Below, one piece after another: positions 3,732-33,354 of a stretch of DNA of 33,510 bases. Origin of the DNA: Pirellula sp. (GTDB taxonomy: Bacteria; Planctomycetota; Planctomycetia; Pirellulales; Pirellulaceae); contig JAIPFP010000041.1 of the NCBI GenBank assembly GCA_021736575.1, positions 1-33,510 on the forward strand, given 5' to 3'. The position numbers were made by a program, and so were the translations under genes. The stretch's first letter is position 1. Every line of letters begins with the position of its first letter. The notes beneath the pieces are model-generated. The model was not told where the DNA came from. It did no database searches and saw only the letters and a list, made by a program, of their open reading frames with translations.

Positions 3732-4817
3732 TCAGTAATCTTGATGCTCAGCCGCTAACCGAGCATACTCCAGGGAATTATCGGGCACCAGCTTGAATAT
3801 GCACCGATAGCCCTTCTTATCATCTGTCAGGCCGATCGGATCGCCATCGATGCCGAAGAAAGCACGAAGCGTCTTGTTCAACGCTTCCCGATGCTTGCGA
3901 TTCTCACGACGAGCCCCAGGTGAACTCCAAGTCATCAAGCCGTGGCCCTGCGCGAGCGAGTACAACAACTCCCACTGCATGTTCGGCAATCCGTTCTTTG
4001 CGTTGGCGAGTCCCATCTGTGCAAACATTAAACGCTCGTGCTTGCCGCCAGCGAGCACCGTCACAGTGTGTGAATCTTGGAAGCGAATCTCAACGTCCTT
4101 CCAAGAGCAACCAGATGGCGTTGGGAATTTCCCAACCGCAGCCTGCGGCTTCGGCAATAACCGGTCTCTGAACTCGACCAGATGCTTGCGAGCCCAATTG
4201 GTAAGTGCCCAGCCCTCCTCGTCGTGAACCAACGACTGTTCCAGGGGTAAAACGAGACAACCTTTATCGATCAACACTCGCGAGCATTGGGCGTTCAAGA
4301 CTCGCATCGACGTTAGGAACAGCACATACGGACGTTGGTCCTTCAGCTGAACTGCGTCTAGACATCGCGAAAAACGTCGGCCATTAGATTCTTTGGCCAA
4401 GTAGAACGCGAAGCCTGCACCCGAAGTTCCACCGAACTGCCCGAGAAGATAGCAGTGGTGAGTTTCATTCAACTGCTCGACGGCAGGAGCAAATCCGATT
4501 AAATCGCAGAGTACCTTGCTGAGCTTCACAACGTTGAATTCGAAGCAAACCAAGTCGCGTCGATCAACCGGAATATACTCCTCGGTCTTCTCATTGTAGC
4601 CTTCGAAGACTCCATCCTCGAACTCGGACACCTCGAGCCACTCGTACGGATTACCAATCACTGGCAGGGTCTTTGCCAGTTGATTGGTTGCCACGAGTAG
4701 CTCGTATCGCCCAAGATCCGCATTTCTGTGGTCTACATCGCCAAGGCGCTGTTGCCAACACAATCGGGAAGTTGACAGTCCCCAGACTCGTTCAAGCGCT
4801 AGCCAGAATCGGTTCAT
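3732..4817 (-). CDS. Hypothetical protein with probable C-terminal winged helix
   Basis: 361 residues from the ATG at 4817, which has GAGGAAG upstream and overlaps the preceding gene by 26 bases; the longer frame to 4949 would overlap it much more. Not recognised as a named family. The C-terminal 100 residues (NMQWELLYSLAQGHG, then RKHREALNKTLRAFFGI, then a beta hairpin KKGYRCIFKLVP) have the helix-helix-wing order of an OmpR-type winged helix. The N-terminal part has no catalytic motif that I can see. Translational coupling to the 395-residue partner suggests a complex. A perfect TTGGGAATTTCCCAA palindrome lies inside the gene at 4121-4135, sharing a half-site with the operator-like repeats near 3221-3350. 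Confidence 0.75.
   Translation of the reverse strand: MNRFWLALERVWGLSTSRLCWQQRLGDVDHRNADLGRYELLVATNQLAKTLPVIGNPYEWLEVSEFEDGVFEGYNEKTEEYIPVDRRDLVCFEFNVVKLSKVLCDLIGFAPAVEQLNETHHCYLLGQFGGTSGAGFAFYLAKESNGRRFSRCLDAVQLKDQRPYVLFLTSMRVLNAQCSRVLIDKGCLVLPLEQSLVHDEEGWALTNWARKHLVEFRDRLLPKPQAAVGKFPTPSGCSWKDVEIRFQDSHTVTVLAGGKHERLMFAQMGLANAKNGLPNMQWELLYSLAQGHGLMTWSSPGARRENRKHREALNKTLRAFFGIDGDPIGLTDDKKGYRCIFKLVPDNSLEYARLAAEHQDY
4121..4135. promoter_or_regulatory. Palindrome TTGGGAATTTCCCAA inside a coding region
   Basis: Perfect 7-base arms around one central base. The half-site TGGGAA matches the arm of TGGGAAAATTCCCA at 3337-3350. It may be an internal operator or coincidence. Confidence 0.3.
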
Positions 4818-5979
4818 GTCGAGGCTTCCTCGTCGATAGTCCAGTGATAATGAAGCCGCGTTGAGCCAACCAGGCTTCGATGATAGTTGCAATCGGACCT
4901 CGGTTGTACATCGCAACATTTGGCGGCCGCACGGTAACCGCCAACTCACTCTTTCGACCGAACATCTGAAGCTTGAACGTGGCTGAAATCAATCGTCGCT
5001 TAATATGGATATCCTTGTTGCGACCTTGAGCCCAATTGAAAAGATCGTCTCCCTTTCGAATCGTGATCACACCGTATCGCTCATCCGGATCGCCCAACCA
5101 CAGCTCCACCAATTTCACATCGCGGATGCCATCGATGTCTCCTGGTGAAAGCGCATCAAAGCCGAACTCACGCAGCGGCTCAAGGGAATACTTCACTCCA
5201 GTCGGAAAGCAATCCTCGCTGCCGAACAGGTGTTTGCCTAACAGCCGGCAATACAGAGCCTTCTCCTTCGGAGACTTCGCGTTGATGCGGAGTTCTCCGA
5301 ACGCACGATTGTAGATTGCCAAATCGCTTTGGACTGGCCAGAACGACTTGATATCGAAGTTGCCTGCGTTCACCACGGGCTGGCGTCGAAACAGGCTGCC
5401 ATGCAGGATCGAGATATCGACTTCGTCCTTCCGGTCGAATATCTCTATCTTGGTCCCTTGACCGCGGAATCGCTCGACGTACCACGAATCGATGTCGCGT
5501 TCGAGTTGCTGCAACGTTTCCTCGGCCGGCGTCACATACTTCGGTGGCTTCGTTTGATTCGCTTGGTAGTAATCAAACGACCTAGCTCGTTTCAACTTGG
5601 CTCGCGCATGTGTTTGAACAAGTTGCTCCCGCTCGGTCAACCAAGCGGCAGTAACGATGTCCGCTGCTGAATGTTCACCACCTTGCTCAAGACCCAGCGT
5701 ATGGCCAGGAACTCGATCGAGCAGCAGTTCGACAGCAACCGCGTTTGCAAGTTCGTCGATTAGGCAAATCGCGTCCAGCAAGTCTGCAGGTGTTTCGTGA
5801 TCAGCGTGGGTTATCTCGCGTATGACCGCTTGGCAATCGATCGAATCAGGTGACTCGATTCGCACGGACCGACTTGCAAAGAAGTCAGTGTAAGGTTGGA
5901 GCAATTCGAACAATCGCTTAGGAGCGATCGATTCCAAAACGCCAGGGCGCGATAGACGCGGAAGTCGAACAGAGGTCAT
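4792..5979 (-). CDS. Hypothetical protein, first of a coupled pair
   Basis: 395 residues, not recognised. It is a soluble mixed alpha/beta sequence without signal peptide, membrane segment or classical nucleotide-binding or nuclease motif. The first 160 residues are mainly helical and rich in acidic and Leu residues; the C-terminal half has several predicted strands ending in a helix (IIEAWLAQRGF). It overlaps the next gene by 26 bases, so the two are probably made in fixed ratio. It begins right after a 300-base region that holds a large inverted repeat. Position between a sigma/phage module and a defence operon suggests an accessory or conflict role, but that is context only. Confidence 0.75.
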   Translation of the reverse strand: MTSVRLPRLSRPGVLESIAPKRLFELLQPYTDFFASRSVRIESPDSIDCQAVIREITHADHETPADLLDAICLIDELANAVAVELLLDRVPGHTLGLEQGGEHSAADIVTAAWLTEREQLVQTHARAKLKRARSFDYYQANQTKPPKYVTPAEETLQQLERDIDSWYVERFRGQGTKIEIFDRKDEVDISILHGSLFRRQPVVNAGNFDIKSFWPVQSDLAIYNRAFGELRINAKSPKEKALYCRLLGKHLFGSEDCFPTGVKYSLEPLREFGFDALSPGDIDGIRDVKLVELWLGDPDERYGVITIRKGDDLFNWAQGRNKDIHIKRRLISATFKLQMFGRKSELAVTVRPPNVAMYNRGPIATIIEAWLAQRGFIITGLSTRKPRHEPILASA

Positions 5980-6280
5980 GGTGTCTGCCTAGAAAAAGTT
6001 ACAAACGCATAGCAATCCTTCATTGATAAAACGTCAATCGATCCAACCGGCTGACGAGAAAAAGCGATTGGCAGTGGTTGGTCTATTCGGCATCCACCGA
6101 GTATTGTTCCTGATTTGGGCATCCCATCCATCAGTTCATGACCGTTGTCCTACGAGATTCCATCCAGACCAAACCACTGCCAATCGCGAACGCTATCATT
6201 CACATGCGATTGACACGTTAGGTCACAGCCAAAAAAGAAAATGGGGAAAAGCCATGCGTCCCAAACCGGCTATCCCGGTC
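5980..6280. other. Intergenic region with nested inverted repeats
   Basis: No credible gene. The main content is the inverted repeat 6064-6187. An outer pair, ACGTCAATCG at 6031-6040 and CGATTGACACGT at 6207-6218 (two-base bulge), flanks it. CCGGCTATCCCGG followed by GGGGTTTTTT at about 6269-6294 is a weak plus-strand terminator-like element. Confidence 0.5.
6064..6187. repeat. Large imperfect inverted repeat, 21-22 bp arms
   Basis: Arm 1 at 6064-6084 begins GCGATTGGCAGTGGTT; arm 2 at 6166-6187 ends AACCACTGCCAATCGC. They are complementary over 21 positions with one extra A in arm 2. The enclosed 81 bases show no gene. A structured RNA, a small non-autonomous insertion or a protein-binding cruciform are all possible. 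Confidence 0.65.
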
Positions 6281-8272
6281 TCAGGGGTTTTTTCGGCTCC
6301 CGCGCTTAGATGAGGCGCGCTTAGTTGACGTTCGGTTGGCTGCTGACGCCTTCGTTTGATCGCTCGGACGCAGGCGCTCACCCGGCATCTTAATGATCAA
6401 AATTCTTCGAGGTTCTTGTTCGTTAGTTCTCTGAACATCAACAGTCTTGAAAAGATCACGAAGGTGCAGAGATGTCCCTTGACGATCAGTTTGATCAAGA
6501 ACGATAAGAAACCCTAATCTTGCGCTCGTATTCTGATACTCGCATGTTTGAGAAGAGTAGGCCTGCTCAAGCGAGGAGAAGGAGCAGTCGCGCTCCTCAC
6601 GTTTGACTTCAATAACTAAGTGTTCCGCTCGCAATTGAACGAATACATCCGCACGCCCGCCCCCAATATCTGAAACCTCGATCTCAGTACCAAGAAGAAA
6701 TGGCCGCAGTTGATTCAGTAAATCTGCTTGCAATGACGATTCATGTGCTTTCGTTCCATCAGCAGCGCGGAATAGGTAGGAAACGTTTGACTCGTGTCCA
6801 ACCGTCATTTCAAGTCGGCTACTGACAAACGACGTCAACCACAAGATCAAAGTATTGAATAGCCTCTGAACAACTGTAGACCTTTGATAATCGGGATGCG
6901 ACTCTATTGCGGCAATCTGTTCATTTAAGACTGCTAGTTGAGCCTCGGTGAGCGTCTCCAAGAACACACCAAACGCACTTTGCATCACACGTGCAAGTCT
7001 CTCGCCTCGGTCAGGTTGCGGCATCAAATTAGCAACAACATTGATGATCATATCCCTCCGTGAACTAGAACATAACACACGACGGGTAACCTGAGCGGGC
7101 TTTGCCGAACCCACCTTTCCTAACAGCTCTTCTGCACTATCAGAAAGGTCGGAGCTTGCATTCCTTTGGAGCCACGTGCGCAACAAAGTTGCGAACGCTG
7201 GCTGCTCAGCGATGCAGGAAACAATCTTCGGTTGTACTAAACGCTCAATCGCACCTTCCTTATCCATCCTGAGGATTGCGCGACTCGCTTGAAAAATGGG
7301 CAATAAGTGAAGTTCAATCATCGACGCTGGTTCGTACCAAGCGGGCGAAACCAATCCATCATCTAGTCTTTGAAGATTCTCCGCTAACTGGGTCCATTGA
7401 ACGACTTCTAGTGACCTGGCTCCCAGCCATGGCGGATCGCAAGTACTACGATGATAAAGCCTTAACTCCAATGTTCTGCGTCGGATTTCGTCTGATAGAG
7501 TGTTGTTAGGGTCATCAAGCTTGCACTCATAGAAGTCCAAGAGGGTTTGTAAACAAACGTCAAAAAGCTTTGCATCTGGTCGGCTATTCCCAAATTTCAT
7601 TGACTTTCTGAACCAGCCGCATGCTTCAACGATGTTCTCAATTGCTTCCTTACAATCAATACATCGTAGGAATTTCACCATGTGTGCAATCCCTAACTCG
7701 AAGGAAGCTTCGTCGGCTGCTTCTGAATGTCCCGAAAGATCATAAAGTCGTTTCAGTAGTGAATCATCAAACCAATATGTGTTTGCAATTCCCACGATCT
7801 TTGCGTACCAGCGAGAAGGTGCGGTCGATGAGCTCCAGTCTAAGTCAAGTAACGCGGCGATAAAAGCATATCGCAGCGACGGCTCTCGCAGCGCAATACG
7901 TAGGGCACCGTCAAGAACTCCAGAGCGCCCGACCGGTCCCAAACTCTCGGTATTTATCTGGTCGATATAGACACGAAAGAGCAAATGCTGGAGGCCGTCG
8001 GAAATGCACGGATCAATCGCGTTGACGCAACCACGTAGCGCAATTCCATTTGTGCAGGACGCAACTAGGGATAGGATAATCTCGTTATGAGAATGATCCT
8101 CAACAACAGCAAGCGCCTGAACTATCTCAGGCAATACAGGAGAATTTGCTAAACGGAAAACTCCTTCCTTGATCGATTGGAAACCACCAATACTTTCAAC
8201 GCTGATGACTTCGCCGTTCTCCAAGAGTGAAACGACTCGCTTCTCGACGGAGTGAAGTTCCTGATTTACCAA
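6281..8272 (-). CDS. ABC-3C-associated protein with C-terminal PD-(D/E)XK nuclease
   Basis: 663 residues. The first 480 are an alpha-helical repeat-like scaffold with no motif that I recognise. A PD-(D/E)XK domain follows: E511, D542 in GGGRADVFV, E555 and K557 in LVIEVKRE, Q570 in SLEQAYSSQ. The last 30 residues are a basic Ser/Lys/Arg tail that could bind nucleic acid. The start is TTG at 8272, overlapping the ATPase stop in TTGGTAA, so translation is coupled. As the last gene after an ATPase and a middle component it fits the effector slot of ABC-three-component systems, in which the ATPase is thought to license a nuclease or other toxin. The nuclease call is firm; the system assignment is inference. 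Confidence 0.8.
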   Translation of the reverse strand: MVNQELHSVEKRVVSLLENGEVISVESIGGFQSIKEGVFRLANSPVLPEIVQALAVVEDHSHNEIILSLVASCTNGIALRGCVNAIDPCISDGLQHLLFRVYIDQINTESLGPVGRSGVLDGALRIALREPSLRYAFIAALLDLDWSSSTAPSRWYAKIVGIANTYWFDDSLLKRLYDLSGHSEAADEASFELGIAHMVKFLRCIDCKEAIENIVEACGWFRKSMKFGNSRPDAKLFDVCLQTLLDFYECKLDDPNNTLSDEIRRRTLELRLYHRSTCDPPWLGARSLEVVQWTQLAENLQRLDDGLVSPAWYEPASMIELHLLPIFQASRAILRMDKEGAIERLVQPKIVSCIAEQPAFATLLRTWLQRNASSDLSDSAEELLGKVGSAKPAQVTRRVLCSSSRRDMIINVVANLMPQPDRGERLARVMQSAFGVFLETLTEAQLAVLNEQIAAIESHPDYQRSTVVQRLFNTLILWLTSFVSSRLEMTVGHESNVSYLFRAADGTKAHESSLQADLLNQLRPFLLGTEIEVSDIGGGRADVFVQLRAEHLVIEVKREERDCSFSSLEQAYSSQTCEYQNTSARLGFLIVLDQTDRQGTSLHLRDLFKTVDVQRTNEQEPRRILIIKMPGERLRPSDQTKASAANRTSTKRASSKRGSRKNP

Positions 8273-10218
8273 AGGTAATCATCTCCCGTCGCGCGGCGTG
8301 TATGTCCGTCCTTAACGCAATCCAGGATTACTTCAGAGGCGATTGAAGCGATAAACACCTGAAGCTGCTCATGTTCGAGAGCTACTTCCTGCAATCCAGC
8401 CATCAGTTGAGCTAGATCCGTGGCTGTCACCTCTTGAGCCGCCGGTGAGTCAATCACAAGTAGCCCAGGATACCTCCCAACGCCCAACTGTGTGCCCACG
8501 CTGATCATTGCGAGGACAGTAGCAACCTTTAGCCTTAGCTTCTCGCCCGCTGTTACTTTACTGTACGACGTTTGCTCATCACCCTTTGATAGTATCAGAG
8601 ATAGATTTCCGCGCAGCGTTGCAGATGTAAGATTAATCATCCCAAATCGGTTTGCATATTTGACGATTGCCTGAGAGACCTTCGTTAAAATGTCTTCTTG
8701 CACGGCTTTCACTCGCGACTCCGTTTCGACAAGAGCTGCTTCCAACACCACAAGATCGATTTGCTTCTCCATGTTTTCGGGAATTGACTTACCAGCTTCT
8801 TCAATGCGGGCTTCCAACACAGCAATTTCTTTTGCAAGCTCATTCCGTTTCGACGGTTTTTCAAATTTCTTTGCTTCGTTTAGAAGTGTCGCCTCCAGTT
8901 CAGCAAGTGACTCCTGTTGCCTCAATTGTTGCTCCTCAAGTGACTTGAGTTGCGACGCCGACTTGGACTTTGCCTGCTTGGATGCTTCTAAGCGATGACG
9001 TAAATTCCGCTCGATTTCTGCAGCATCGACGTCGCCGTGAATCGCCTCGCCGCATAAAGAGCAAGCGTTACTAGTGCTCTCCAGCTCCTTCTTCGATTTT
9101 GAAATAGAGTGCTCACATCGGGGACAACATGACGGCTCGAGGGCTCGAAACACTCCATCAGCGGCTGTGGCATCAACGTGATTTTGGAGATCGCGTCGAT
9201 CTTCCAGAAGAGTGTTATTCGCTGCCTCGAATGCTGAATTTGCCTCAATTATCTCGCGATCGAGTTTACGCAAAATCGACCGATCTTCGTTTAGCTTCGT
9301 TGTCAGGTCACTAATCCGATTGGTTGCAATGGCGATTGTTGGTAGTTTATCCCACTCCTGTTTCTTCGAATCCAGCTCGGTATTCAGCGTCTTGATACGA
9401 TCATTGACGGACTCTAAAGCGTCATTTTGTAGGCGGGTTCTCGCTAATTCTTTGCGATTCAGCTCTGCAATTACGGCCTTTATCGAAGACAGCGTAGAAA
9501 CCCAGGGAACGCCGAGATACATTTGCGTCAGCCGTATTGGGAGCCCTGATTCAGGCGGCAGTTCACCCACGAGAACTTTATAATCAGTGCCGATAAACAG
9601 TACGCTGCTCAGAACCTGCCAACCATGCTGCACGATCTTTCCACCAGCTTCACCGAGCGAGCGATGTACAGGAAGTGTTTCCATGCGAAACTCGTGCATG
9701 AAGAAGTTGGACATCACGTCTTCGAATTCGTCTTCGTTGCCAAACGAGTTGACAGTACGTCGATTTCCTGTCTTGCTGTATCTACTTAGCCGCCCTTCGA
9801 TACCGCTTCCTGAGCTAACTTCAATTTCGAATGAGGTCTCCTCTAAATCGAATCCCAGTCTTACCTGTTTGATCCATGACCTTACGTCCGCTTGAAGGTT
9901 GTCTGCCGGTCGTCCTCGCAACATCCAACGAATCACCTCTAGGACGGTTGACTTACCTCGAAGGTTCTTGTCAGAGAGTATTGCCCAGAAACCAGAGCTG
10001 AGTTCTTCCCATCGAAACTCAAAAGGTAATGGTGATTCGTCACTTCCTTTATCGCCAGAAAAGAAGATCGACCGGATTAACAGCCTCTTCGGAGCCGGAA
10101 CCACAGGGGAAGGTTGGATCTGGTACGAAGATAGAATTTGTTCAACACTTTCAGCATCTTGCTGAACTTGCTCAGCAATCGATTCCAGCCATTTGCGATT
10201 CTCCAATTTCGGTTTCAT
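8266..10218 (-). CDS. SMC/Rad50-like ABC ATPase with zinc hook (ABC-3C ATPase)
   Basis: 650 residues. Walker A, SDKNLRGKST, is at about 82-91 and lacks the usual second glycine of GxxGxGKS. Coiled coil runs about 250-355 and 395-515, interrupted by a zinc hook with C365/C368 and C386/C389. The ABC signature region is KVTAGEKLRLKV (about 554-565) and Walker B is GLLVIDSP (585-592). This is the SMC/Rad50 layout, at the short length typical of ATPases in ABC-three-component conflict systems. It probably dimerises by head and hook and senses or binds DNA. The ATG has AAGGG upstream, one base after the middle-component stop; it overlaps the nuclease gene downstream by 7 bases. A RecN/AbiEii-type ATPase is the alternative. 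Confidence 0.85.
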   Translation of the reverse strand: MKPKLENRKWLESIAEQVQQDAESVEQILSSYQIQPSPVVPAPKRLLIRSIFFSGDKGSDESPLPFEFRWEELSSGFWAILSDKNLRGKSTVLEVIRWMLRGRPADNLQADVRSWIKQVRLGFDLEETSFEIEVSSGSGIEGRLSRYSKTGNRRTVNSFGNEDEFEDVMSNFFMHEFRMETLPVHRSLGEAGGKIVQHGWQVLSSVLFIGTDYKVLVGELPPESGLPIRLTQMYLGVPWVSTLSSIKAVIAELNRKELARTRLQNDALESVNDRIKTLNTELDSKKQEWDKLPTIAIATNRISDLTTKLNEDRSILRKLDREIIEANSAFEAANNTLLEDRRDLQNHVDATAADGVFRALEPSCCPRCEHSISKSKKELESTSNACSLCGEAIHGDVDAAEIERNLRHRLEASKQAKSKSASQLKSLEEQQLRQQESLAELEATLLNEAKKFEKPSKRNELAKEIAVLEARIEEAGKSIPENMEKQIDLVVLEAALVETESRVKAVQEDILTKVSQAIVKYANRFGMINLTSATLRGNLSLILSKGDEQTSYSKVTAGEKLRLKVATVLAMISVGTQLGVGRYPGLLVIDSPAAQEVTATDLAQLMAGLQEVALEHEQLQVFIASIASEVILDCVKDGHTRRATGDDYLW

Positions 10219-10219
10219 G

Positions 10220-10864
10220 TTATGCCCTTGTGGTGCTCGGCTTACGTCGATCTAGCAGTCGACTTCGGACATCTTCTGCTATTGATGGTATAGTTGCTCC
10301 GAGCTTCGTGCTCGCATATTCGATTCTCTCGTATTGTCGTTGCTTCAGTTCGTTTCCATTCCGTCCGTTTGCGATTTGAGACACCAATGCTGATCGTTCG
10401 CGGTACCATTTGAGAACTGGTGCTTGCTTTTCAATTCCCTGGCACGTCTGAATAGCCTTGGGCATGACAAGATAGTCGGTCTCTAGCACGCGATCGACTG
10501 TTCTCCGTCCTCCAATTCGAATCATTTCTCGTGAACAAAGTATCGCTAAAGCATCATCTAGCTTCTCGTAAGCTCCAAACCGCCACCGAATCATAGGAAT
10601 GCGTCTAAGGTCAGGTTCATCATCAATAAAGATTTGGGCCGCGATATCTAGTAGGTGGTTGTCACCGGTTTTGTCAAAAAGCTCAATCAACTCGTCAGCA
10701 AGATAGTCGGGGTAACGCATCCAGAAGTCGAATGCGCAAAGACGCGTGTTACCTTGAAAGAGCAGGCTCTCACCAGCTGGAGACGCGGGGACAGACTTTT
10801 GCCCTCCCGCAACCAACAAAAACAGCAATCTCACAGCATCAAGGTAAAACGAATGGTGGTTCAT
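10220..10864 (-). CDS. Probable ABC-three-component middle component
   Basis: 214 residues, helical. The N-terminal half has a hydrophobic helix (DAVRLLFLLVAGG) followed by CAFDFWMRYPDYL, which resembles the LDFLLRYP signature I associate with middle components of ABC-3C systems. The centre, RRIPMIRWRFGAYEKLDDAL then GGRRTVDRVLETDYLVMP, looks like a winged helix. The gene is placed directly before the ATPase (one-base gap), exactly where this adaptor is expected. It starts 61 bases after res, the largest gap in the operon, so an internal promoter is possible. Assignment rests on this local resemblance and gene order; a profile comparison would settle it. Confidence 0.65.
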   Translation of the reverse strand: MNHHSFYLDAVRLLFLLVAGGQKSVPASPAGESLLFQGNTRLCAFDFWMRYPDYLADELIELFDKTGDNHLLDIAAQIFIDDEPDLRRIPMIRWRFGAYEKLDDALAILCSREMIRIGGRRTVDRVLETDYLVMPKAIQTCQGIEKQAPVLKWYRERSALVSQIANGRNGNELKQRQYERIEYASTKLGATIPSIAEDVRSRLLDRRKPSTTRA

Positions 10865-10925
10865 GTGTTTGGGCTCTTCAGTTTTACATAGTCAAAGCTA
10901 TAGGCATGCCTGCGAAAATGAGCAG

Positions 10926-13610
10926 TCAATTCTTCAGGGTGTTCTTTAGCTTCTCCCAATCGCCCTCAACAATCCACGCGAAGCGATAGCCATCGGGGCT
11001 CCGTTGCGCCCAAAGCTCGCCAATATCGCGTTTGTGCTGCTCATCGGGGTTGGATGCCAGTTTCGCATTCTTGTACTCGACGATTACCATGGTTCCATCG
11101 AGTAATTCGACGATGAAGTCAGGAAAGAATTTGCCGGGCGATTTCGGCAACCAGAATCCACCGTGGGATTCGTGATCTAGATTTCGGAGCCAACGTTTTA
11201 CGTTTACATGCGCATCGATGATCGTAGCAGTCTCTAACTCTTTCTTGTTCATGTCGCCGATTAGGTCAAAGGCATGCTTCTTGAACTTGTGGCCGCCTGA
11301 GTACTCGCGTGTTGGGTTGTAGCGAAACTCCTCCACATGAATGGCGAAATCCCTATCCGTCGTGATCGAATCCGGATCGTCTTTGATCAACATCTCAGTT
11401 GCCTTGCGTAACTGCACGCGACCGTGATCGGAGATTTTGACACGAATTACTTCAGCTAACTCGTGGCGTCGTCGGACCAACATCGATAGCGGAATGCCTC
11501 GCTTCTGGACTAACGCCTGGATGACGCGCAAGAGCCAAGGTTGGCTGAAACGAAGAGGCAGTCCCTGCAGCGAATCGCCGCGATGGATTTCGCGATCAAT
11601 CCAGCGAACAAGGTTTACTTCTGACCAATCATCGTCTTCGCGAATCAGCTCAAGCTGACGGAGCCGCACTTCGTTACCAACTCGCGAAACCAGTCCAGCT
11701 TCATTTCCGCCACGAGATTCAATATCGATGGTGGCAGAGTTACCGATCTTGATATCGGATGCGAACTCACTTTCTGGGATGGAAACGTCGCACTTATTGA
11801 GATCCCATTCAAATTGGTCGAGCTCTATCGGCTCAAGCAATCGTCGGCGGTCATCTGTCTTTACGCTCAAACGTGGGACAATAAATGGTACTGCGAATTG
11901 ACCTGGCAGCTTGGGTGTTATCCCTGCAGGCTTCTCCAGTTCCCAATAATCATCGATCGCCTTTTTATCTTGTTCGGTGCTAACTGCGTTCTGAAGCTGG
12001 TGAAGTTCCGTAGGTGTAGGCAAATCCTCAAGTACCAACGTGCTCGACTCAGGTTCCCATCGAATCTTATTGGCCAAGGTCGGTGTTAATTTGTCCGTTG
12101 CTGGAGGAGCTGTCATTGGGATGCGGCTAAAGCCGAGTCCCTGTTGAGCAGCATTCACCTTAACTCGCAATGCGTCCGCCGCGGAGCGCTCGTCGAATCC
12201 ACAGGTCTCAACCATCCGATCGCGAAGTTGCATTGCAGTCTGTACGACATTGTCGCTCAATACAAACGCATAGGCACGATCGAGGGCCGGAACATTCGTT
12301 GGACAAGCGTTAGGCATCCGCAGAATTCGACCGATCAACTGTTCGACGGCTGTTGCGGTGGCCGTGTTTCCAATCGAACCTAACACATACGCCCAAGGGC
12401 AGTCCCATCCTTCGCGCAGCTTGTCTACCGTGATGATGTAACGAATGGGGCACTGCAACGCCATCAGATCAGTGTCACCGATCTCATCGATACTACCTGT
12501 GCAAATCTTTACGTCGGCTTCAGGCACTTCGAGTTTCTCAATCAAGGCCTTCTTTACAGCCTCAACCGTGTGCATCTCTTTGGTTTTAGAGTTTGGCTGG
12601 GCTTGAATTAGTGCGATCGGACGAATGGGCTGGACGCCGTTATCCCGATGTTCAAGATCAGCGAGAAATTCAAGTTCCTCACGGCGATGCTTGGTAGCAG
12701 CGAGGACTTCGAGCCAGTCCGAACGATTCTCAAGCTCAACAGGCAGTTTGATCATGCCTTCATTCTTTAGAGCCAGGGCGCTGACACTGTGTAGAACGTT
12801 GCTCGCATACTTTGGATTCGTGCGATGCGATGGATCGTGGATTTGCTCGGGAGTAGCAGTTAGCTCAAGTACAAACGACGGTCCGAATCGCATCAACGAT
12901 TCGAAGGAAACTGGCGTTCGAGCGTTGTGTGCCTCGTCCATCACCACAATAGGCTGTCGAACTCTAAGCGCATTCGCCAACGACAGTTGTATTAGGCCAG
13001 ACTCATCCCTTTGTAAGTCTTGAACCACAGCCGCTGGTAAATTCTCCAGTGGCTCCTTCATGTAACCGTTATCTCGGTAGATGCGACGAGTTGTTTCCAA
13101 CTCTTCGCCGCTGCGATCATCGCGAATTCTGTAGGATTGAATCGTCGTCACAATTACGATGGCAGGACCACCAGGACGGACAAACTGCGGACGAGTCAGC
13201 GCTTCCTCAAGCGTCATCACTTCAATCGCCGCTCCCAACTCCTCCTCAATCGCAGCACGGTAAGGGTGGTTGGGGTTCTTCAGACCGCGAAGCGTTTGGT
13301 CGCGAATGGTTGTGCTAGGAGTGATCCACAGAACGGCAGGTCGGTCGGTTGCAAGCAAACTTCTGCCAATCACGCCTACAGCATGAGCGGCAAGTAGTGT
13401 CTTTCCGCCACCAGTCGGAATTCGCAAACAAACATAAGGGACACCACCGAACCCCGGCGTCGATAGGTAGTCTCGCTCGGTGAACTCTGCAAACGCATCA
13501 TGCTCAGGGCGATGAACGCCAAGCAGAGATTTCTCGCGCACAACAGCTGAATAGTTGCGAAGAATCGAGAGAGATTCAGTCTGGTATTGTTTGAGGGCCA
13601 ATCGCCGCAT
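10926..13610 (-). CDS. res: Type III restriction enzyme Res subunit (helicase-nuclease)
   Basis: 894 residues. An SF2 helicase motor is clear: Walker A PTGGGKT at 65-71, DEAH at 225-228, motif III-like LTATP in the next block, and motif VI QLIGRILRMP. The C terminus ends in a PD-(D/E)XK endonuclease, with P830-D831 in KFFPDFIVE and E845-Y846-K847 in VIVEYKNAK. Length is close to that of known Type III Res proteins. Res hydrolyses ATP to communicate between recognition sites and cuts unmodified DNA together with Mod. The start follows AGGAG that overlaps the Mod stop codon, so the two are coupled. All catalytic residues that can be judged are present, so the enzyme looks intact. Confidence 0.92.
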   Translation of the reverse strand: MRRLALKQYQTESLSILRNYSAVVREKSLLGVHRPEHDAFAEFTERDYLSTPGFGGVPYVCLRIPTGGGKTLLAAHAVGVIGRSLLATDRPAVLWITPSTTIRDQTLRGLKNPNHPYRAAIEEELGAAIEVMTLEEALTRPQFVRPGGPAIVIVTTIQSYRIRDDRSGEELETTRRIYRDNGYMKEPLENLPAAVVQDLQRDESGLIQLSLANALRVRQPIVVMDEAHNARTPVSFESLMRFGPSFVLELTATPEQIHDPSHRTNPKYASNVLHSVSALALKNEGMIKLPVELENRSDWLEVLAATKHRREELEFLADLEHRDNGVQPIRPIALIQAQPNSKTKEMHTVEAVKKALIEKLEVPEADVKICTGSIDEIGDTDLMALQCPIRYIITVDKLREGWDCPWAYVLGSIGNTATATAVEQLIGRILRMPNACPTNVPALDRAYAFVLSDNVVQTAMQLRDRMVETCGFDERSAADALRVKVNAAQQGLGFSRIPMTAPPATDKLTPTLANKIRWEPESSTLVLEDLPTPTELHQLQNAVSTEQDKKAIDDYWELEKPAGITPKLPGQFAVPFIVPRLSVKTDDRRRLLEPIELDQFEWDLNKCDVSIPESEFASDIKIGNSATIDIESRGGNEAGLVSRVGNEVRLRQLELIREDDDWSEVNLVRWIDREIHRGDSLQGLPLRFSQPWLLRVIQALVQKRGIPLSMLVRRRHELAEVIRVKISDHGRVQLRKATEMLIKDDPDSITTDRDFAIHVEEFRYNPTREYSGGHKFKKHAFDLIGDMNKKELETATIIDAHVNVKRWLRNLDHESHGGFWLPKSPGKFFPDFIVELLDGTMVIVEYKNAKLASNPDEQHKRDIGELWAQRSPDGYRFAWIVEGDWEKLKNTLKN

Positions 13611-13621
13611 CGGCAGTTCTC

Positions 13622-15244
13622 CTAGCTTTCACGCAATGAATAGGGGATTTGCCGAAAGACGATGTTCTCTCGAGCTAGAGTTGTTTCGCTCAGTCGAGTC
13701 GCTTCACCGAAGATGACCCGGCTGCCTTTACCCTCTGGGTGCGCAGGCAATCCAGCCAAAACACTGTTGGTCAAAACATTGCCTCCAGCAGGTCGACGAT
13801 CGCCCAACACGCCGTTGTAAAGTAAGTAGATTGCTCGTCCGTGATGGACGCCGAGCAATGGGCAATCCTTCTTCGGGCGTTTCTGTACTGGCACGCCTGT
13901 TTCCAACAAATACACATAGCGAGCTAAGTCGGTGAAGGGAACTTCGCCATTGATGTCACCAAACTCATCGAGCAACGTGCGACCGAGTTTGCAGTAACGG
14001 AATCCTGAGCCAAGGCCTTCAACTGATTTATCCGATCCGCCAACATAGCCTTCACATGCTCGCTGAATTCTCTGCCTAGTCACACGCTCGGAAACTTCAG
14101 GCAATACTTCTACCAAGACACATTTCCGCGTTCCCCCGTCTGCTTTATTTGCCGCAAGCACAGCTTGCCCCGTCGTTCCACTTCCAGCAAAGGTATCGAA
14201 GATTATCGAATCCTTGTCACTTCCGATGTCAAGGATTCGACGAATCAACCGCGTAGGTTTTGGCGTAATAAAAACGCTCGCCGAATCTTCAAAATCACAG
14301 ATTGAAACCAGTTCCTTCTTCGCCTCTTGAGTGTTGCCTACGTCGGTGAGTAGCCAAAGAGTTTCTGGAACGATTCCATCTTTGACATCGGTAAGAAACC
14401 GTTTAATACGCGGCACGTTATTTCCATCTTTGCCCCACCATATTCTGTTATCCGCATTGAGCCGGTCAAATTCTTTCTGAGAGAATCGCCAATAGGTTCC
14501 CTTAGGAGGACCTGCGATAACTCGACCAGAAGGACTGGTAATTGGATAAGTTCCTTCGCTGTAATAGTTGCGAGCAGAACAATCGCCTGAACTCCATGGC
14601 CCGCGTGAATCGTTGTCAGGGTTTTTGTATCTTTGCTTCTGATCGTCGCTTCGTGGTACTAGGTTTGGACGCCATAAGTCTGCATTCTGCGCATAGACCA
14701 AAATGTAATCATGACTCTCGGATAAGTGACGAGCGGAATTCTTCGGTGAAAACATCTTCTGCCAAATTACCGCAGCAATAAAATTGGCAACGCCGAAAAT
14801 TTCGTCACACACATATCTCAAATGCGCAACGGCATTGTCATCGATCGAGATAAAGATTGCTCCATCGCTCCGCAAGAATTCTCTTAGCAATGCGAGCCGC
14901 GGATACATCATGCACAACCACTTGTCATGACGGCACAAGTCTTCCGCTTCCTTGCCAACGACCTGTCCAAGCCATTTTTTGATTCGCGGATCGTTAACGT
15001 TGTCGTTGTACACCCAGTTTTCGTTGCCAGTGTTATATGGTGGGTCGATGTAGATACACTTCACTTGTCCTCGGTAACGAGGCAATAGGGCCTTCAGCGC
15101 TTCGAGGTTGTCACCCTCAACGAGTAAGTTTTCAGCATCTGGGTCTCCAAACGAAAGCTTAGGATCGCATTCCAGCAACCTCGTAGGGATATGCCGATGA
15201 TGATCAACGACAGCTTCTTTGCCGATCCAGTTGAGTGTTGGCAT
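13622..15244 (-). CDS. mod: Type III-like DNA adenine methyltransferase Mod
   Basis: 540 residues. Motif IV DPPY at 67-70 (YIDPPYNTG) precedes the AdoMet-binding motif I, FAGSG at 352-356, the beta-class order of N6-adenine or N4-cytosine methyltransferases; DPPY with a Res partner points to N6-adenine. The segment between about 160 and 300, including GPPKGTYWRF, is the likely target-recognition region, and a C-terminal extension of about 150 residues follows. It is shorter than classical Mod (about 640 residues). It would modify the host at the site cut by Res and is required for cleavage in Type III systems. First gene of the five-gene defence operon, with AGGGAA before the ATG; the XRE regulator is divergent 122 bases away. 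Confidence 0.92.
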   Translation of the reverse strand: MPTLNWIGKEAVVDHHRHIPTRLLECDPKLSFGDPDAENLLVEGDNLEALKALLPRYRGQVKCIYIDPPYNTGNENWVYNDNVNDPRIKKWLGQVVGKEAEDLCRHDKWLCMMYPRLALLREFLRSDGAIFISIDDNAVAHLRYVCDEIFGVANFIAAVIWQKMFSPKNSARHLSESHDYILVYAQNADLWRPNLVPRSDDQKQRYKNPDNDSRGPWSSGDCSARNYYSEGTYPITSPSGRVIAGPPKGTYWRFSQKEFDRLNADNRIWWGKDGNNVPRIKRFLTDVKDGIVPETLWLLTDVGNTQEAKKELVSICDFEDSASVFITPKPTRLIRRILDIGSDKDSIIFDTFAGSGTTGQAVLAANKADGGTRKCVLVEVLPEVSERVTRQRIQRACEGYVGGSDKSVEGLGSGFRYCKLGRTLLDEFGDINGEVPFTDLARYVYLLETGVPVQKRPKKDCPLLGVHHGRAIYLLYNGVLGDRRPAGGNVLTNSVLAGLPAHPEGKGSRVIFGEATRLSETTLARENIVFRQIPYSLRES

Positions 15245-15366: not shown

Positions 15367-15699
15367 GTGGCGAACAAAATGACGCTTGGACAGAGATTGC
15401 GAGAGCTTCGAAAAGCAAAGCGGCTCTCGTTGCGTGAACTAGCTTCCCGCGTGGACGTCGGCTTCACGTACCTTTCGAAAATCGAAAACCACAAGCTCGA
15501 AGATGGCCACAGTCCATCGGAAAAGCTGCTTCATCTGCTGGCCGTCGAACTTGGCGGAGACGAAGAGGAATTGCTCTTGCTGGCCGAGAAGGTCCCCGAA
15601 CCCATCCGTCGCCGCGTTATTGCCCGTCCCGACGCTTTCCGACGCCTCGCAGAACTCTCGGATCGAAAGTTGGATCGGGTTCTTGCAAGCTTGGACTGA
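15367..15699 (+). CDS. XRE-family helix-turn-helix regulator
   Basis: 110 residues. The HTH_3/XRE domain spans about 8-65: LRELRKAKRLSLRELASRV, then GFTYLSKIENH, then a fourth helix. The C-terminal 40 residues (VIARPDAFRRLAELSDRKLD) resemble the tail of regulators that control plasmid or restriction-system genes. The frame opens with GTG at 15367; ATG at 15379 (MTLGQRL) is an equally good start since neither has a strong ribosome site. Divergent from mod and 48 bases upstream of a PIN-domain gene, it probably times expression of the methyltransferase and nuclease genes like a controller protein. It could also be the antitoxin-like regulator of the PIN gene. Confidence 0.85.
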   Translation: MANKMTLGQRLRELRKAKRLSLRELASRVDVGFTYLSKIENHKLEDGHSPSEKLLHLLAVELGGDEEELLLLAEKVPEPIRRRVIARPDAFRRLAELSDRKLDRVLASLD

Positions 15700-15747: not shown

Positions 15748-16839
15748 GTGAATGACGAAGACTCAAGCCAATCTGTATCAGAGGTTCAATCGGGAATACT
15801 TGAATCTAGAGCCCTATTTATCGATACATCCGAGTACGAGCGACTTTCATATGCATTCGGAGTAGGGACACTCGCAATCCTATCAACACACAATCGAGTA
15901 ACACTCTTACTACCTGAGGTCGTTGAGTCGGAGATTCGCGACCATTTCAAGAAGGCCGCACAAGAGTCTGTGAGGCTACACAAGACTTTTTCCGACCAGG
16001 CGAGAGTGCTTCGCAATCTTGATGATCCGAAACTAGGGTTGGTTTTCACTAAATTCGTTGCGGATGAAGTAACCAAAGCATTGACTATCGCCTTCGAGAA
16101 GTTCACCGACATGATGACCACGATCAAGCTTCCCGTATCGACAGTAGATCCCAAAGTGGTATTCGATCGCTACGTGGCAACGCTCCCGCCGTTCAACTCA
16201 GGAAAAAAGAAACATGAATTCCCTGATGCGTTCGCACTAGAATCAATCAGAAACTGGGCAGTTGCAGAAGGTCGTAAGGTTTATGTGGCATCACAAGACA
16301 ACGGGATGAAAGAATACTGCGATGAAGTCCCTGAGTTAGTTTATGTTCAGAGCGTCGACCAGTTTCTCGACTTGGCGATCCGTGAGGATCAGGAGACTGC
16401 GTCGAAACTGAGAACCGTTATCGATGCCAATCAAGATTCAATCGAATCGTTCATTGAAGCCGATTTTCCGAGCCTTGGCTTTTTCGTCGACGATCGCGAG
16501 GGCGACGTTAACGAAGTCAGCGTCAACGAAATCGAGATTCACGCAATGTCCATCGTAAAATTGGATGCAGGTGTTGCGACAGTAGAACTCGATTTAACAA
16601 TTAAGTTTGTAGCAGATGTAAGTTACGACGACATTGAGCATGGCATTTACGACAGCGACACAAAATCTCTCTGGACCCAGCAAGAGACTGGAGAGTGGGA
16701 ACGAGAATACTACGGCAGTGCCGTGATTTACGTTTCGCTGGATGACGCTGACCCAACCAAGCTGACAATAAAGTCGTTTCAGATTAATGATGGAGAGGAT
16801 ATTGCACTTTCCTTTGATGATGGCTGGCCCTACAAGTAG
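15748..16839 (+). CDS. PIN-domain protein (DUF4935-like)
   Basis: 363 residues from a GTG preceded by AAGGAAG. The PIN fold acidic set is present: D26 in LFIDTSEY, E62 in VVESEI, D160 in FPDAFAL and D184 in VASQDNGM, so nuclease activity is plausible. A beta-rich C-terminal domain of about 150 residues follows (from LGFFVDDREGD). PIN domains are metal-dependent RNases and often toxins. At 363 residues this is much larger than VapC and matches the DUF4935 group, which occurs in defence islands. It shares a transcription unit with the XRE regulator and lies next to the restriction operon and the recombinase cassette. No classical small antitoxin gene is visible beside it. Confidence 0.8.
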   Translation: MNDEDSSQSVSEVQSGILESRALFIDTSEYERLSYAFGVGTLAILSTHNRVTLLLPEVVESEIRDHFKKAAQESVRLHKTFSDQARVLRNLDDPKLGLVFTKFVADEVTKALTIAFEKFTDMMTTIKLPVSTVDPKVVFDRYVATLPPFNSGKKKHEFPDAFALESIRNWAVAEGRKVYVASQDNGMKEYCDEVPELVYVQSVDQFLDLAIREDQETASKLRTVIDANQDSIESFIEADFPSLGFFVDDREGDVNEVSVNEIEIHAMSIVKLDAGVATVELDLTIKFVADVSYDDIEHGIYDSDTKSLWTQQETGEWEREYYGSAVIYVSLDDADPTKLTIKSFQINDGEDIALSFDDGWPYK

Positions 16840-16868: not shown

Positions 16869-17288
16869 TTAGGATCGGTTGTGAGCCGGCTGACTCCAAG
16901 CGATTCTCTGTTTCCGCCAATCTGGACATGCACATAGCTTTTGAATTGCTTTGAGCCGAGTCTCACTTGTCGGCGAGCAGCCAAAGGTTGAAAATAACAG
17001 CTCTTCCTGAATCTCGGGTGCGAGCAGTCGCAAGTTCATGATCTGCGTAACCCTCGCCCGCGTCACGTGGCCTAGTCGGGCAAGATCGGCATAGTCTGTC
17101 ACGACGCCTTGTCTGATGAGATCCTCGAAGTGGATCGCTAGAGCCATGTAACGTGAGATGCGAGGAATGCGCTCAATTGCTGGTTTGGATTCGTCCAATT
17201 GGCGTGCGCCTTCAACCATTCGTTTCTTGGCTCCACGCCCGCGTTGCTGAACGGTAAAATGAAAGTCGACACTTACTGGTTTATTCAT
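16869..17288 (-). CDS. Helix-turn-helix protein of the recombinase cassette
   Basis: 139 residues. A ParB/KorB-type helix-turn-helix is visible at about 64-85 (DYADLARLGHVTRARVTQIM), followed by NLRLLAPEIQEELL. The N terminus is basic. Its ATG overlaps the recombinase stop (ATGA), so it is translationally coupled as the last cassette gene. Similar small HTH proteins follow serine recombinases in planctomycetes and myxobacteria. It may act as a directionality or accessory DNA-binding factor, which is inference. Convergent with the PIN gene, 29 bases away. Confidence 0.8.
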   Translation of the reverse strand: MNKPVSVDFHFTVQQRGRGAKKRMVEGARQLDESKPAIERIPRISRYMALAIHFEDLIRQGVVTDYADLARLGHVTRARVTQIMNLRLLAPEIQEELLFSTFGCSPTSETRLKAIQKLCACPDWRKQRIAWSQPAHNRS

Positions 17289-18859
17289 GATGCAACCTCG
17301 TGTAACTGTGGACGGTTTTCCATGGCAATTGTCTTGATGCCATCAGGATGAAAGGTGATCGTCACGCGACCCGTCGAGCCGTCGTAATCGATCTGCTTGA
17401 CGATCAGCTGTACGATCCGCGATTGTTCGCGGACTGTGAGCGATTCCCAGATCGGTACGAAACTGGTGAGCGCCTTCACAACATCGTCGCGTGTCAGCGT
17501 CTGGGCCTGCAGCGCTTGCACTTTTGCGGTGACAATCGCGTGTCGATGTTCTGCCCGATGAAGGCTTTCGTGCCAATCAGCCAATTGTTCGAGCGACTTT
17601 GAACTTGGATCACCGGGCTTGATCGTTGGAGCTGCAATTCGGATTGCTTCATTCCAATACTCCAGCTCCTTCACAAGCCCGTCCCGTTCGGCCACAAGTA
17701 CCCCAAGTTCGCGTTCAAATTGAATCTTGGCTTGTTCCACAACTTCGTCGACCATCGCCGCGTCGTGGCCAACGTGGCGTATTTTGTCCACGACAAACTT
17801 CTCGATCTCAGCGGCCGGCACCGACTTCGATTTGCAATTTTTCCAACCGCGTTTCTGAGCCTTCATGCAGACGTAGTAACGGTAGCGTTTGGTGCCATTC
17901 TTGGTGGTATGAGTCGGTGTCATCGAACAGTCGCAACAAGCGCATCGAAGGATTCCTTTGAGCAGTGCACCGAATTTGTTTCTCGCTTCGACACCGCCAG
18001 TGCGGCCGTTTCGCCGGAGAAGCGATTGCACCTTCTGCCAAACATCCGCGTCGATAATCGCGTCCTGCTCACCTTCGTTGATTTCATCCTTGTAGCCAAG
18101 CTTACCGATGTACGTCACATTGGTGAGCAGGCGGAATAGCGTCGCTTTGGTGAATTGCGAGCCGCCTCGCTGTGTTCCCTTCCGTGTCTGCCACACCTTG
18201 TTTGTCCAGCCACGTTGGTCCAACTCGGCGATCGTCGCCATGATCGATTGCTTCTCGAGGTAGAGATCGTAGATGGCTCGCACCTTGTTGGCTTCGAACT
18301 CATTGATCTTTAGCTTGCCGCCTTGGCCGTCGATATCGTATCCGAGCAACGGCATACCACCCGACCATTTTCCTTTACGTCGAGCTGCAGCGATCTTGTC
18401 ACGGGTTCTTTCCGAGATAAGCTCACGCTCGAATTGTGCGAACGATAGCAGCACGTTGAGCATCAACCTACCCATTGAGTTGGTCGTGTTAAACTGCTGC
18501 GTCACGCTTACGAAAGCGACTTGGTTGCGTTCGAAGACTTCGAGCATCCGAGCGAAGTCCATCAAAGAGCGACTCAGTCGGTCGACCTTGTAGACCACCA
18601 CGCAATTCACTTTGCCGGCTTCAATGTCCGCCAGCAGTTTCCTAAGGGCCGGACGATCCATGTTACCACCGGTGAATCCACCATCGTCGTATCGATCAGG
18701 CACACAATGCCATCCTTCTTGCGTCTGGCTCTTGATATACGCCTCGGCGCATTCACGCTGGGCGTCAAGCGAATTGAACTCCTTGTCGAGGCCCTCGTCT
18801 GTTGACTTGCGAGTGTAGATTGCACAGTTCAGTTGACGGTTGTTGGCTTGCTTGCTCAT
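17285..18859 (-). CDS. Large serine recombinase
   Basis: 524 residues from the ATG at 18859, which follows GGAGG by 6 bases and overlaps the previous stop in TGATG. The resolvase catalytic domain holds the nucleophile at about S19 in IYTRKSTDEG, plus the DRLSRS and SFAQFERELISERTRDK motifs. The recombinase domain follows (about 160-260) and then a zinc beta ribbon with Cys pairs (ILRCACCDCSM, later YYVCMKAQKRGWKNC), a coiled coil, and a short C-terminal region. This is the complete layout of large serine integrases, which join short att sites without needing homology. It is the likely mobility enzyme of the surrounding island. Its cassette's 5' end faces the 22-bp repeat at 19665-19686. Confidence 0.92.
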   Translation of the reverse strand: MSKQANNRQLNCAIYTRKSTDEGLDKEFNSLDAQRECAEAYIKSQTQEGWHCVPDRYDDGGFTGGNMDRPALRKLLADIEAGKVNCVVVYKVDRLSRSLMDFARMLEVFERNQVAFVSVTQQFNTTNSMGRLMLNVLLSFAQFERELISERTRDKIAAARRKGKWSGGMPLLGYDIDGQGGKLKINEFEANKVRAIYDLYLEKQSIMATIAELDQRGWTNKVWQTRKGTQRGGSQFTKATLFRLLTNVTYIGKLGYKDEINEGEQDAIIDADVWQKVQSLLRRNGRTGGVEARNKFGALLKGILRCACCDCSMTPTHTTKNGTKRYRYYVCMKAQKRGWKNCKSKSVPAAEIEKFVVDKIRHVGHDAAMVDEVVEQAKIQFERELGVLVAERDGLVKELEYWNEAIRIAAPTIKPGDPSSKSLEQLADWHESLHRAEHRHAIVTAKVQALQAQTLTRDDVVKALTSFVPIWESLTVREQSRIVQLIVKQIDYDGSTGRVTITFHPDGIKTIAMENRPQLHEVAS

Positions 18860-19356
18860 CACTTGCCTCCTTTCTTGTTTAGATTGAAAAAGTGATACCC
18901 GTTGCAGTGCTGGCCCGTGATCTTCTTGGCAACGGCGCTGAGCGTCTTATAGATCGCGCCTTCGTATTCAAAGCCGTTCTCCAGAACTAACACTAAGATC
19001 TTCTCGCCCTTGTAGACCCGCTCGAGTACTGATTTCGGCGGCGGAAGGCGATTGTCTTCTTCTGGCTGGACGAAACCTGTCACGGTATCTCCCGTGGGCT
19101 TCGGCATTGGCTTTACTGCTTTGGGCGCAGTCGTACGGATGTCGGTACCGCGAGCAAGTTCTGCTGCGCGACGCCTAGCTCGCTCTGAAATGTCGCCTTC
19201 GATGTTGGCCTGCATCTTCCAAGCGATGCGTTTGACGAGCCAGTGCTTATTGCGAGTGTTGGTAGGCTCGCCCCATGTCTCTTGATACTTCTCTCGTAAC
19301 TGCCCCACCGTCATACGGTGGAGCAGTGCGACCTCTTTGTCGATGTCTAGTTGCAT
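18859..19356 (-). CDS. DUF2924 protein of the recombinase cassette
   Basis: 165 residues from the ATG at 19356, preceded by TGGAGAAA. A GTG start at 19383 is possible but overlaps the upstream gene and lacks a ribosome site. The segment LRERYQE-like (MTVGQLREKYQETWGE) then NKHWLVKRIAWKMQ is the DUF2924 signature. The C-terminal half (VYKGEKILVLVLENGFEYEG, then AVAKKITGQHCNGYHFFNL) resembles a small modified-DNA or SAND-like domain. The family is found almost only next to serine recombinases in planctomycetes and alphaproteobacteria. The biochemical role is unknown; a recombination accessory factor is likely. Confidence 0.85.
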   Translation of the reverse strand: MQLDIDKEVALLHRMTVGQLREKYQETWGEPTNTRNKHWLVKRIAWKMQANIEGDISERARRRAAELARGTDIRTTAPKAVKPMPKPTGDTVTGFVQPEEDNRLPPPKSVLERVYKGEKILVLVLENGFEYEGAIYKTLSAVAKKITGQHCNGYHFFNLNKKGGK

Positions 19357-19379
19357 TGATTTCTCCAGAGAAAACGGAC

Positions 19380-19592
19380 TCACTGGTCGTTAACCACGTT
19401 GGTCACAGAGAGCACGCTTCCCGAAGAAACCTCAAGGCAAGCTGTTGGCAATACTTCTGGATCGTTGGCGATTTCTGAATCCGGAATCGCTACACGCGAT
19501 TTCATCCGAACGATGCCGGCCGCCAGAATCGCTGCGATTTCCGATCGCCGCACCGGCCCTGATAGGGAAGAAGGGGGAACAGTCGAGAGCAA
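19380..19592 (-). CDS. Small conserved protein heading the recombinase cassette
   Basis: 70 residues. The core RRSEIAAILAAGIVRMKSRV matches short proteins I have seen ahead of DUF2924-recombinase pairs in planctomycetes; function unknown. A strong Shine-Dalgarno, GGAGGT, lies 5 bases before TTG at 19592, so TTG is the likely start. GTG at 19556 is an alternative. The stop lies 24 bases before the DUF2924 ATG, consistent with a four-gene operon. Confidence 0.65.
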   Translation of the reverse strand: MLSTVPPSSLSGPVRRSEIAAILAAGIVRMKSRVAIPDSEIANDPEVLPTACLEVSSGSVLSVTNVVNDQ

Positions 19593-22444: not shown

Positions 22445-22485
22445 CTTAAGTCTTTTGGTCGTCAAAGTTCGTACTTTGACGCAAG

Positions 22486-22558
22486 CTCCCCCGGGTGGGC
22501 TCGAACCACCGACACACGGATTAACAGTCCGTTGCTCTGCCAACTGAGCTACAAGGGA
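22486..22558 (-). tRNA. tRNA-Asn (anticodon GTT)
   Basis: 73 bases. Acceptor arms TCCCTTG and CGGGGGA pair fully with two G-U pairs; the D arm is GCTC/GAGC, the anticodon stem ACGGA/TCCGT with loop CTGTTAA, the T arm GGTGG/CCACC with loop TTCGAGC. The discriminator base is G and CCA is not encoded. It is on the minus strand with its own terminator downstream, and it marks the edge between the accessory region and the chromosomal genes. Confidence 0.93.
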
Positions 22559-33255: not shown

Positions 33256-33354
33256 CAATAAGTCGTTCCCGCGCAGGCGGGAATCCACCAATAAGTCGTT
33301 CCCGCGCAGGCGGGAATCCATCAATAAGTCGTTCCCGCGCAGGCGGGAATCCAG
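33256..33354. repeat. Three 33-bp tandem repeats with palindromic core
   Basis: Units 33256-33288, 33289-33321 and 33322-33354, differing only at the last base. Each contains the palindrome TTCCCGC-GCAG-GCGGGAA. A fourth core lies in opposite orientation at 33377-33394. The sequence belongs to the widespread REP-like hairpin type. Confidence 0.9.

Follow-up and report, generated by a model that had tools for sequence, protein, structure and literature searches.

Introduction

Type III restriction-modification (R-M) systems methylate one strand of the DNA and cut at paired sites, and many, though not all, of the LmuB proteins of Lamassu defence systems carry a zinc-hook cysteine motif. The present study concerns a locus of Pirellula sp. 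(assembly GCA_021736575.1, contig JAIPFP010000041.1, positions 1 to 33,510; this whole stretch of 33,510 nucleotides is referred to as the window) in which mod and res genes of a type III pair are followed, on the same strand, by the Lamassu genes lmuC, lmuB and lmuA, together lmuCBA. An earlier note, made from the letters of the sequence, had taken the five genes for a single operon in which Mod/Res and an ABC-three-component (ABC-3C) nuclease system would cooperate.

Lamassu, ABC-3C and DdmABC systems were united as the Lamassu superfamily in a 2023 review, in which the "middle component" is said to be named for its operon position in other members, the effector domain of LmuA is placed at the N terminus, and LmuB is described as generally bearing a Glu-to-Gln change at Walker B (PMC10586767). 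DNA ends and hairpins are the triggers put forward for Lamassu (PMC12904381; PMC10586767), while the Rad50 zinc hook is described as a single Cys-X-X-Cys (PMC3874168). Effectors controlled by an ATPase are also linked genetically to R-M systems in the case of PrrC, which is kept silent by the type I enzyme to which it is linked and is reported as invariably R-M-linked, and of RloC, a zinc-hook ABC ATPase effector that in 8 of 72 cases was mapped to an R-M locus of type I or III (PMC2610378). A zinc-hook ATPase effector beside an R-M system is thus already in print, for another effector. The literature searched on Lamassu, ABC-3C, restriction co-location and Planctomycetes yielded no description of the present locus, or of the slot that it occupies in this genus; in two papers on Dnd and BREX neither ABC-3C nor Lamassu is mentioned.

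The reading that we favour, with good confidence, is that mod-res and lmuCBA are two autonomous antiviral systems, placed head to tail and stacked by recombination as exchangeable cargo of a mobile element.

Replacement and probable exchange of the lmuCBA cassette

Res was detected (E ≤ 1e-20) in 3 of the 27 genomes of the genus. One of these, the sister genome G477, has the PIN-XRE-Mod-Res block as in the window, with Res 97% identical (for the XRE and PIN proteins see Table 1) and Mod 94% identical over the first 140 residues, 91% over the last 150 and 41% in the middle. This pattern in Mod (window 13622-15244 against L143:5309-6919) resembles a swap of the target-recognition part. Behind res, G477 carries a same-strand TcmP gene (TIGR04474, 1.1e-58) at a distance of 75 nt, which is followed by a DUF5131 gene in convergent orientation (PF07505, 2.2e-97); no LmuB match was found in this genome, which is 80% complete. 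Nucleotide homology between the two loci breaks off within the final codons of res and starts again 49 nt past the stop codon of lmuA. On this alignment, block 10944-6233 is replaced as a whole in G477, with both flanks retained.

The only genome sharing the junction of res and lmuC with the window is G468, whose contig of 14,919 bases encodes the C terminus of Res, LmuC, LmuB and LmuA; no Mod was found in this genome, the contig beginning inside Res. Identity to the window is high throughout a shared tract (Table 1), compared with 88-90% in the two 100-nt blocks before it and 67-78% in the ten after it. Synonymous divergence is 0.013 for LmuC, 0.045 for LmuB and 0.057 for LmuA, against 0.48, 0.34 and 1.62 for other genes of the element (PDDEXK_1, AAA_24 and ORF395, respectively), and the ratio of nonsynonymous to synonymous divergence is below 0.25 in all three Lmu genes, a figure underlain by few changes. 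We read the tract as a recent exchange of the cassette via flanking homology, and the window and G468 are therefore not independent support for the arrangement. A jump of identity in the gap between res and lmuC was considered and rejected, as the changes are located within genes, some 200 nt into res on one side and some 155 nt into ORF395 on the other.

Conservation of the five-gene arrangement

LmuCBA relatives were collected in 94 loci, which were drawn from genomes and plasmids and in one case from a viral contig, with L016, the G468 contig, left out. Genome contigs were scanned with one peptide pattern, keeping 80 of 81 relatives, so that divergent relatives were missed, and 9 plasmids were fetched of the 36 records with a match. 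Three pairs of loci are the same sequence twice (L023/L146, L024/L145 and L036/L129), L023 and L024 being moreover 99.9% alike, and the 81 loci that bear LmuC and have 4.5 kb or more of upstream sequence correspond to 79 distinct contigs. In none of these 81 was a Mod or Res match (E ≤ 1e-3) found beside LmuC, and the motif DPPYN[TS]G is encoded in none of the 94.

From the side of Res, relatives (E ≤ 1e-20) occur in 16 of 392 genomes of the phylum, the window's included. No match to LmuC, LmuB or LmuA (E ≤ 1e-3) was found on the stretches fetched from the other 15, which extend 1.6 to 10.4 kb past the last Res match, most of this extension being the Res gene itself in L124. LmuB is rare, being present in 3 of the 392 phylum genomes and in 5 of 241 family genomes, namely the window's genome, G468, G403, G406 and G434; the LmuCBA of the last three has no Mod or Res match, with just 1.2 kb of upstream sequence in G403.

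The earlier note had named, as one outcome that would refute its reading, that the last three genes never occur beside mod and res elsewhere, and this is nearly what was found: the order was seen in none of the 81 loci approached from LmuC and none of the 15 genomes approached from Res, the sole sharer being G468, where Mod was not seen and the tract looks recently exchanged. Since the order is not recurrent, a new five-gene system was rejected. Cooperation itself gains no support, as the link is not conserved and the same Mod-Res stands before another cassette in G477; strictly, the comparison neither supports nor excludes it.

Family assignment and integrity of the five genes

Each of the five proteins is covered almost end to end by a single PADLOC model (Table 1). 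At E ≤ 0.01, the Pfam matches among them are limited to Mod (PF01555) and Res (PF04851), with DEAD under the cut-off in Res, and no NCBIfam model reached its curated cut-off. The open reading frames (ORFs) and spacings of the earlier note hold, with 11 nt between mod and res, 61 nt between res and lmuC, 1 nt between lmuC and lmuB, and an overlap of 7 nt between lmuB and lmuA. Its names for the parts were also right, including that of the 214-residue gene as an ABC-3C middle component, which the profile search assigned to LmuC, and both of the nuclease domains that it had called intact, in Res and LmuA, appear so from their residues.

Table 1. Features of the locus and its surroundings, with positions in the window; numbers after model names are E-values.
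Feature	Coordinates	Strand	Description	Evidence
mod	15244-13622	-	type III DNA methyltransferase, 540 aa	PADLOC MTase_III PDLC03644 3.4e-209; PF01555 1.8e-35
res	13610-10926	-	type III restriction helicase-nuclease, 894 aa	PADLOC REase_III PDLC03650 8.2e-110; PF04851 8.2e-11
res-lmuC gap	10865-10925	-	61 nt	
lmuC	10864-10220	-	ABC-3C middle component, 214 aa	PADLOC LmuC PDLC03872 2.5e-75; 100% identical in G468
lmuB	10218-8266	-	SMC/Rad50-like ABC ATPase, two CxxC pairs, 650 aa	PADLOC LmuB PDLC03864 1.4e-196
lmuA	8272-6281	-	effector, C-terminal PD-(D/E)XK nuclease, 663 aa, TTG start	PADLOC LmuA PDLC03853 7.8e-141
Exchanged block	6233-10944		LmuCBA replaced by TcmP + DUF5131 in G477	blastn match ends 10945, resumes 6232
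Shared tract	5824-11122		91-100% identical to G468 per 100-nt block	sliding identity
XRE-type helix-turn-helix gene	15379-15699	+	106 aa, divergent, candidate mod-res regulator	PF13560 6.1e-9, PF01381 2.8e-8; 98% identical in G477
PIN_12 protein gene	15748-16839	+	beside XRE-Mod-Res, also in G477	PF16289 2.8e-21; first 76 residues 86% identical in G477
ORF395	4792-5979	-	slot flank	71-90% identical, nearly full length, in eight other genus genomes
139-residue recombinase-like gene, large serine recombinase, DUF2924 gene	16869-19383	-	other slot flank	phrog_95 1.7e-118; PF00239 1.9e-39; PF11149 1.8e-37

The type III pair has a Mod with DPPY and FxGSGTT motifs and a Res with helicase motifs and a C-terminal PD-(D/E)XK domain. 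In alignments from which rows below a set length were dropped, the residues of DPPYNTG and FxGSGTT are invariant in 16 of 16 Mod sequences. Res carries PTGGGKT at 65 and DEAHN at 225, and in 17 of 17 aligned sequences both D225, E226 and H228 and the nuclease residues D831, E845 and K847 are invariant. As in type III systems generally, Mod adjoins Res and the motifs are kept, and 14 of the 15 other phylum Res loci also have a Mod match; no difference from the type was found, and what varies is the middle part of Mod relative to that of G477. Two further Mod-like matches occur in the window's genome, G000, at G000:C101:17173-18399 (L139) and G000:C268:1053-1700 (L140), one with an internal stop and the other partial.

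Matches to the PADLOC models for LmuC, LmuB and LmuA place the ABC-3C part in the Lamassu superfamily, and what characterises that superfamily is found in the sequence: three components, of which LmuB is SMC/Rad50-like with a Cys motif, LmuC is small and LmuA has an enzymatic, here nuclease, domain. In LmuA, E532, D542, E555 and K557 are invariant in 51 of 51 aligned sequences. Among the 80 LmuB counted, G88 is kept in 77 and K89 in 78, while at Walker B D590 is kept in 79, S591 in 77 and P592 in 76, and E596, five residues past S591, in 78. The Ser that this subtype of LmuB shows at Walker B takes the place of the Glu usual in ABC ATPases, which would point to slow or absent ATP turnover. The zinc hook that the earlier note had seen in LmuB stands as a Cys motif at the tip, but each chain has a pair of CxxC motifs, C365/C368 and C386/C389, in place of the single Cys-X-X-Cys of Rad50; 78 of 80 LmuB keep all four cysteines. 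LmuB also has weaker matches to four other LmuB models; a sequence search of solved structures gave weak Rad50 matches for it, the best at 0.0012, and none for LmuA or LmuC.

Matches to all three Lmu proteins are present in 83 of the 94 loci, and in 83 of 83 the order is C-B-A on one strand; each of the other 11 lacks one of the three, several of them lying at contig ends. The order and the C-terminal position of the nuclease therefore set these loci apart as a distinct Lamassu subtype, unlike other members in which LmuC is in the middle and, in the review's account, the effector domain lies at the N terminus and Walker B shows Glu-to-Gln, not Ser (PMC10586767).

A virus-borne LmuCBA was considered and rejected. 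The search of viral contigs with LmuB alone was empty, and the LmuB alignment found one locus, L129, which over 11,917 bases is identical to the genome contig of L036 and holds no Mod or Res match. LmuC had no match in phage records.

The cargo slot and its probable mobile element

Seven regions with ORF395 were fetched and compared with G468 and G477; ORF395, which has no Pfam or PHROG match, is partly kept in G486, G477 and G469. The recombinase-side trio at the other flank is 72-97% identical to the window in G481 and 76-91% in G479, whereas the version in G484 and G490 is distant (40-52%) and oppositely oriented and G475 has a distant 139-residue gene only; the trio was not seen in G482, and the contig of G485 stops about 2 kb upstream of ORF395.

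Between the same flanks, PADLOC calls on 10 genes of 3 loci identified a long argonaute in G481 (PDLC02384, E 0; L172:9345-12566) and, in G479 (L176:3976-14978), a type IIG enzyme (5.4e-272) with six further genes behind it on the same strand, of which one encodes a CARF protein (1.2e-103) and another is phosphoribosyltransferase-like (3.2e-21). A TcmP/DUF5131 pair was considered for two genes of G481, of 280 and 273 residues, and was rejected as neither matched.

As the flanks are kept in relatives while the genes between them change, mod-res-lmuCBA is cargo. On the far side, the window carries Sak4-like, exonuclease and sigma-like genes, in keeping with an element of phage-like or integrative type. 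Defence hotspots on mobile elements, such as those of Pseudomonas genomic islands (PMC12629846), likewise combine conserved flanks with varying cargo, the slot here being instead in a planctomycete genus.

Further along the window, an ORC-CDC6-like AAA ATPase (20508-22121; PF24389, 3.3e-9) follows a gene for 264 residues that matches neither Pfam nor PHROG, and is adjoined by a tRNA-Asn gene (22485-22558), perhaps an edge of the mobile element; no direct repeat of at least 20 nt with the tRNA-Asn gene was found. A 33-nt repeat occurs in three head-to-tail copies at 33255-33353.

Discussion

From the conserved motifs and the comparisons above we infer the biochemical activities, the trigger of LmuB with LmuC, the killing of the cell and the functional independence of the two systems. 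Mod would methylate the sites of the cell's own DNA, and Res would move along unmethylated DNA and cut it. LmuB with LmuC would sense an abnormal DNA structure, either ends or hairpins formed during the replication of invading DNA, and the LmuA nuclease, once unleashed, would destroy DNA and probably kill the infected cell. The common orientation of mod-res and lmuCBA would have arisen because recombination put LmuCBA into the slot behind res, which in the sister genome holds TcmP and DUF5131. Neither system would need the other, since LmuCBA occurs without Mod/Res elsewhere and Mod-Res stands before another cassette in G477.

Several observations weigh against this account. All five genes share one strand, with 61 nt between res and lmuC, and a scan that has no power here lists no consensus terminator. 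The G477 contig is short and its genome 80% complete, and between the window and G468 the element's sigma-like gene, too, shows little divergence (synonymous divergence 0.12). Elsewhere, C-B-A Lamassu lies close behind HsdR (L041), HmaB-HmaC (L030), PprDinG-PprPIWI (L057) and a DruE-like helicase (L006). Upstream of LmuC, 44 of 80 neighbours at any distance are on the same strand, a larger share than downstream of LmuA, with 29 of 78. In favour of the account, same-strand neighbours closer than 130 nt are no more frequent upstream (10 of 81) than downstream (11 of 81). Both counts are rough because genes in the loci were called by greedy picking of ORFs.

The alternative that survives best concerns control alone: a single transcript, started at the mod promoter and regulated by the XRE protein, would carry both separately acting systems. 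The XRE protein probably controls mod-res, because its gene is divergent, starts 134 nt from mod and is kept with Mod-Res in G477. From the spacing, a single transcript of the five genes is plausible, and the TcmP gene of G477 likewise follows res closely on the same strand. On the other hand, LmuCBA lives elsewhere without Mod-Res and thus likely brought its own promoter, although none of the consensus type was listed in the 61-nt gap by the scan, which covers a single promoter type and, listing 3 promoter-like sites across the region where shuffled sequence gave 9.2, has no power there. A shared transcript is therefore a serious possibility, against which we lean slightly, and one that is compatible with two autonomous systems.

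A broader proposal, which we consider unlikely, sees XRE-Mod-Res as a platform with a trailing slot under its own promoter, where interchangeable second-line effectors (LmuCBA, TcmP) are co-expressed with the restriction enzyme and respond when it acts or when it fails. If so, the C-B-A Lamassu behind HsdR, Hma, pPIWI-RE and the DruE-like helicase would be further cases. In a further reading, that of a guard or backup, LmuCBA would stay quiet as long as the linked restriction enzyme works and fire when a phage inhibits it, in the manner of PrrC. PrrC and RloC provide precedents for such a link, and for RloC also for a zinc hook and a type III locus, but both are single proteins that cleave tRNA, where the present locus has a separate sensor and a PD-(D/E)XK nuclease effector, and the R-M link of PrrC, reported as invariable (PMC2610378), contrasts with the 81 of 81 loci in which LmuCBA is without Mod/Res.

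The four further loci also favour a guard, yet they come from a PADLOC sample of 12 upstream genes in 8 loci, picked by size and closeness from 66 listed plus two of L006, with Pfam run on a few more, and close neighbours are just as frequent on the downstream side. In an LmuB tree with 80 rows, moreover, the six restriction-linked rows (window and G468 included) require 5 changes, against 5.9 for shuffled labels, and are scattered, with at least 4 changes on well supported branches. In this small sample, the proximity to restriction genes suggests repeated arrival in defence islands rather than a general coupling, and a guard appears very improbable.

In four of the collected loci, a protein of about 350 residues is encoded just before LmuC and is 80-88% identical across Halomonas, Pseudomonas, Thiobacillus and Dechloromonas (L017:8130-9356, L018:8266-9354, L079:8065-9354 and L027:8305-9333), its gene overlapping that of LmuC by 4 nt in L017, L018 and L079; the proteins of L018 and L079 have no Pfam match.

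The relay imagined in the earlier note, in which Res would cut unmodified phage DNA and LmuB with LmuC would react to the ends and release LmuA against the genome or the cell, agrees with the adjacency of two systems with intact nucleases and with the proposal of ends and hairpins as Lamassu triggers (PMC12904381), but is just as improbable as a guard, given that LmuCBA does without Mod/Res in all 81 testable loci outside the genus and that the Mod-Res block has another cassette behind it in G477.

The locus is best explained as ordinary in kind, with two known types of system in a cargo slot, and the natural swap is unusually clear. Within one genus, an operon-like defence cluster can thus arise by cassette exchange, and an apparent single operon proves separable, with a natural replacement for one of its parts, a caution that small gaps between genes are no proof of cooperation. 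Should the two systems be coupled after all, loci of the G000 and G477 types would form a natural pair with and without LmuCBA.

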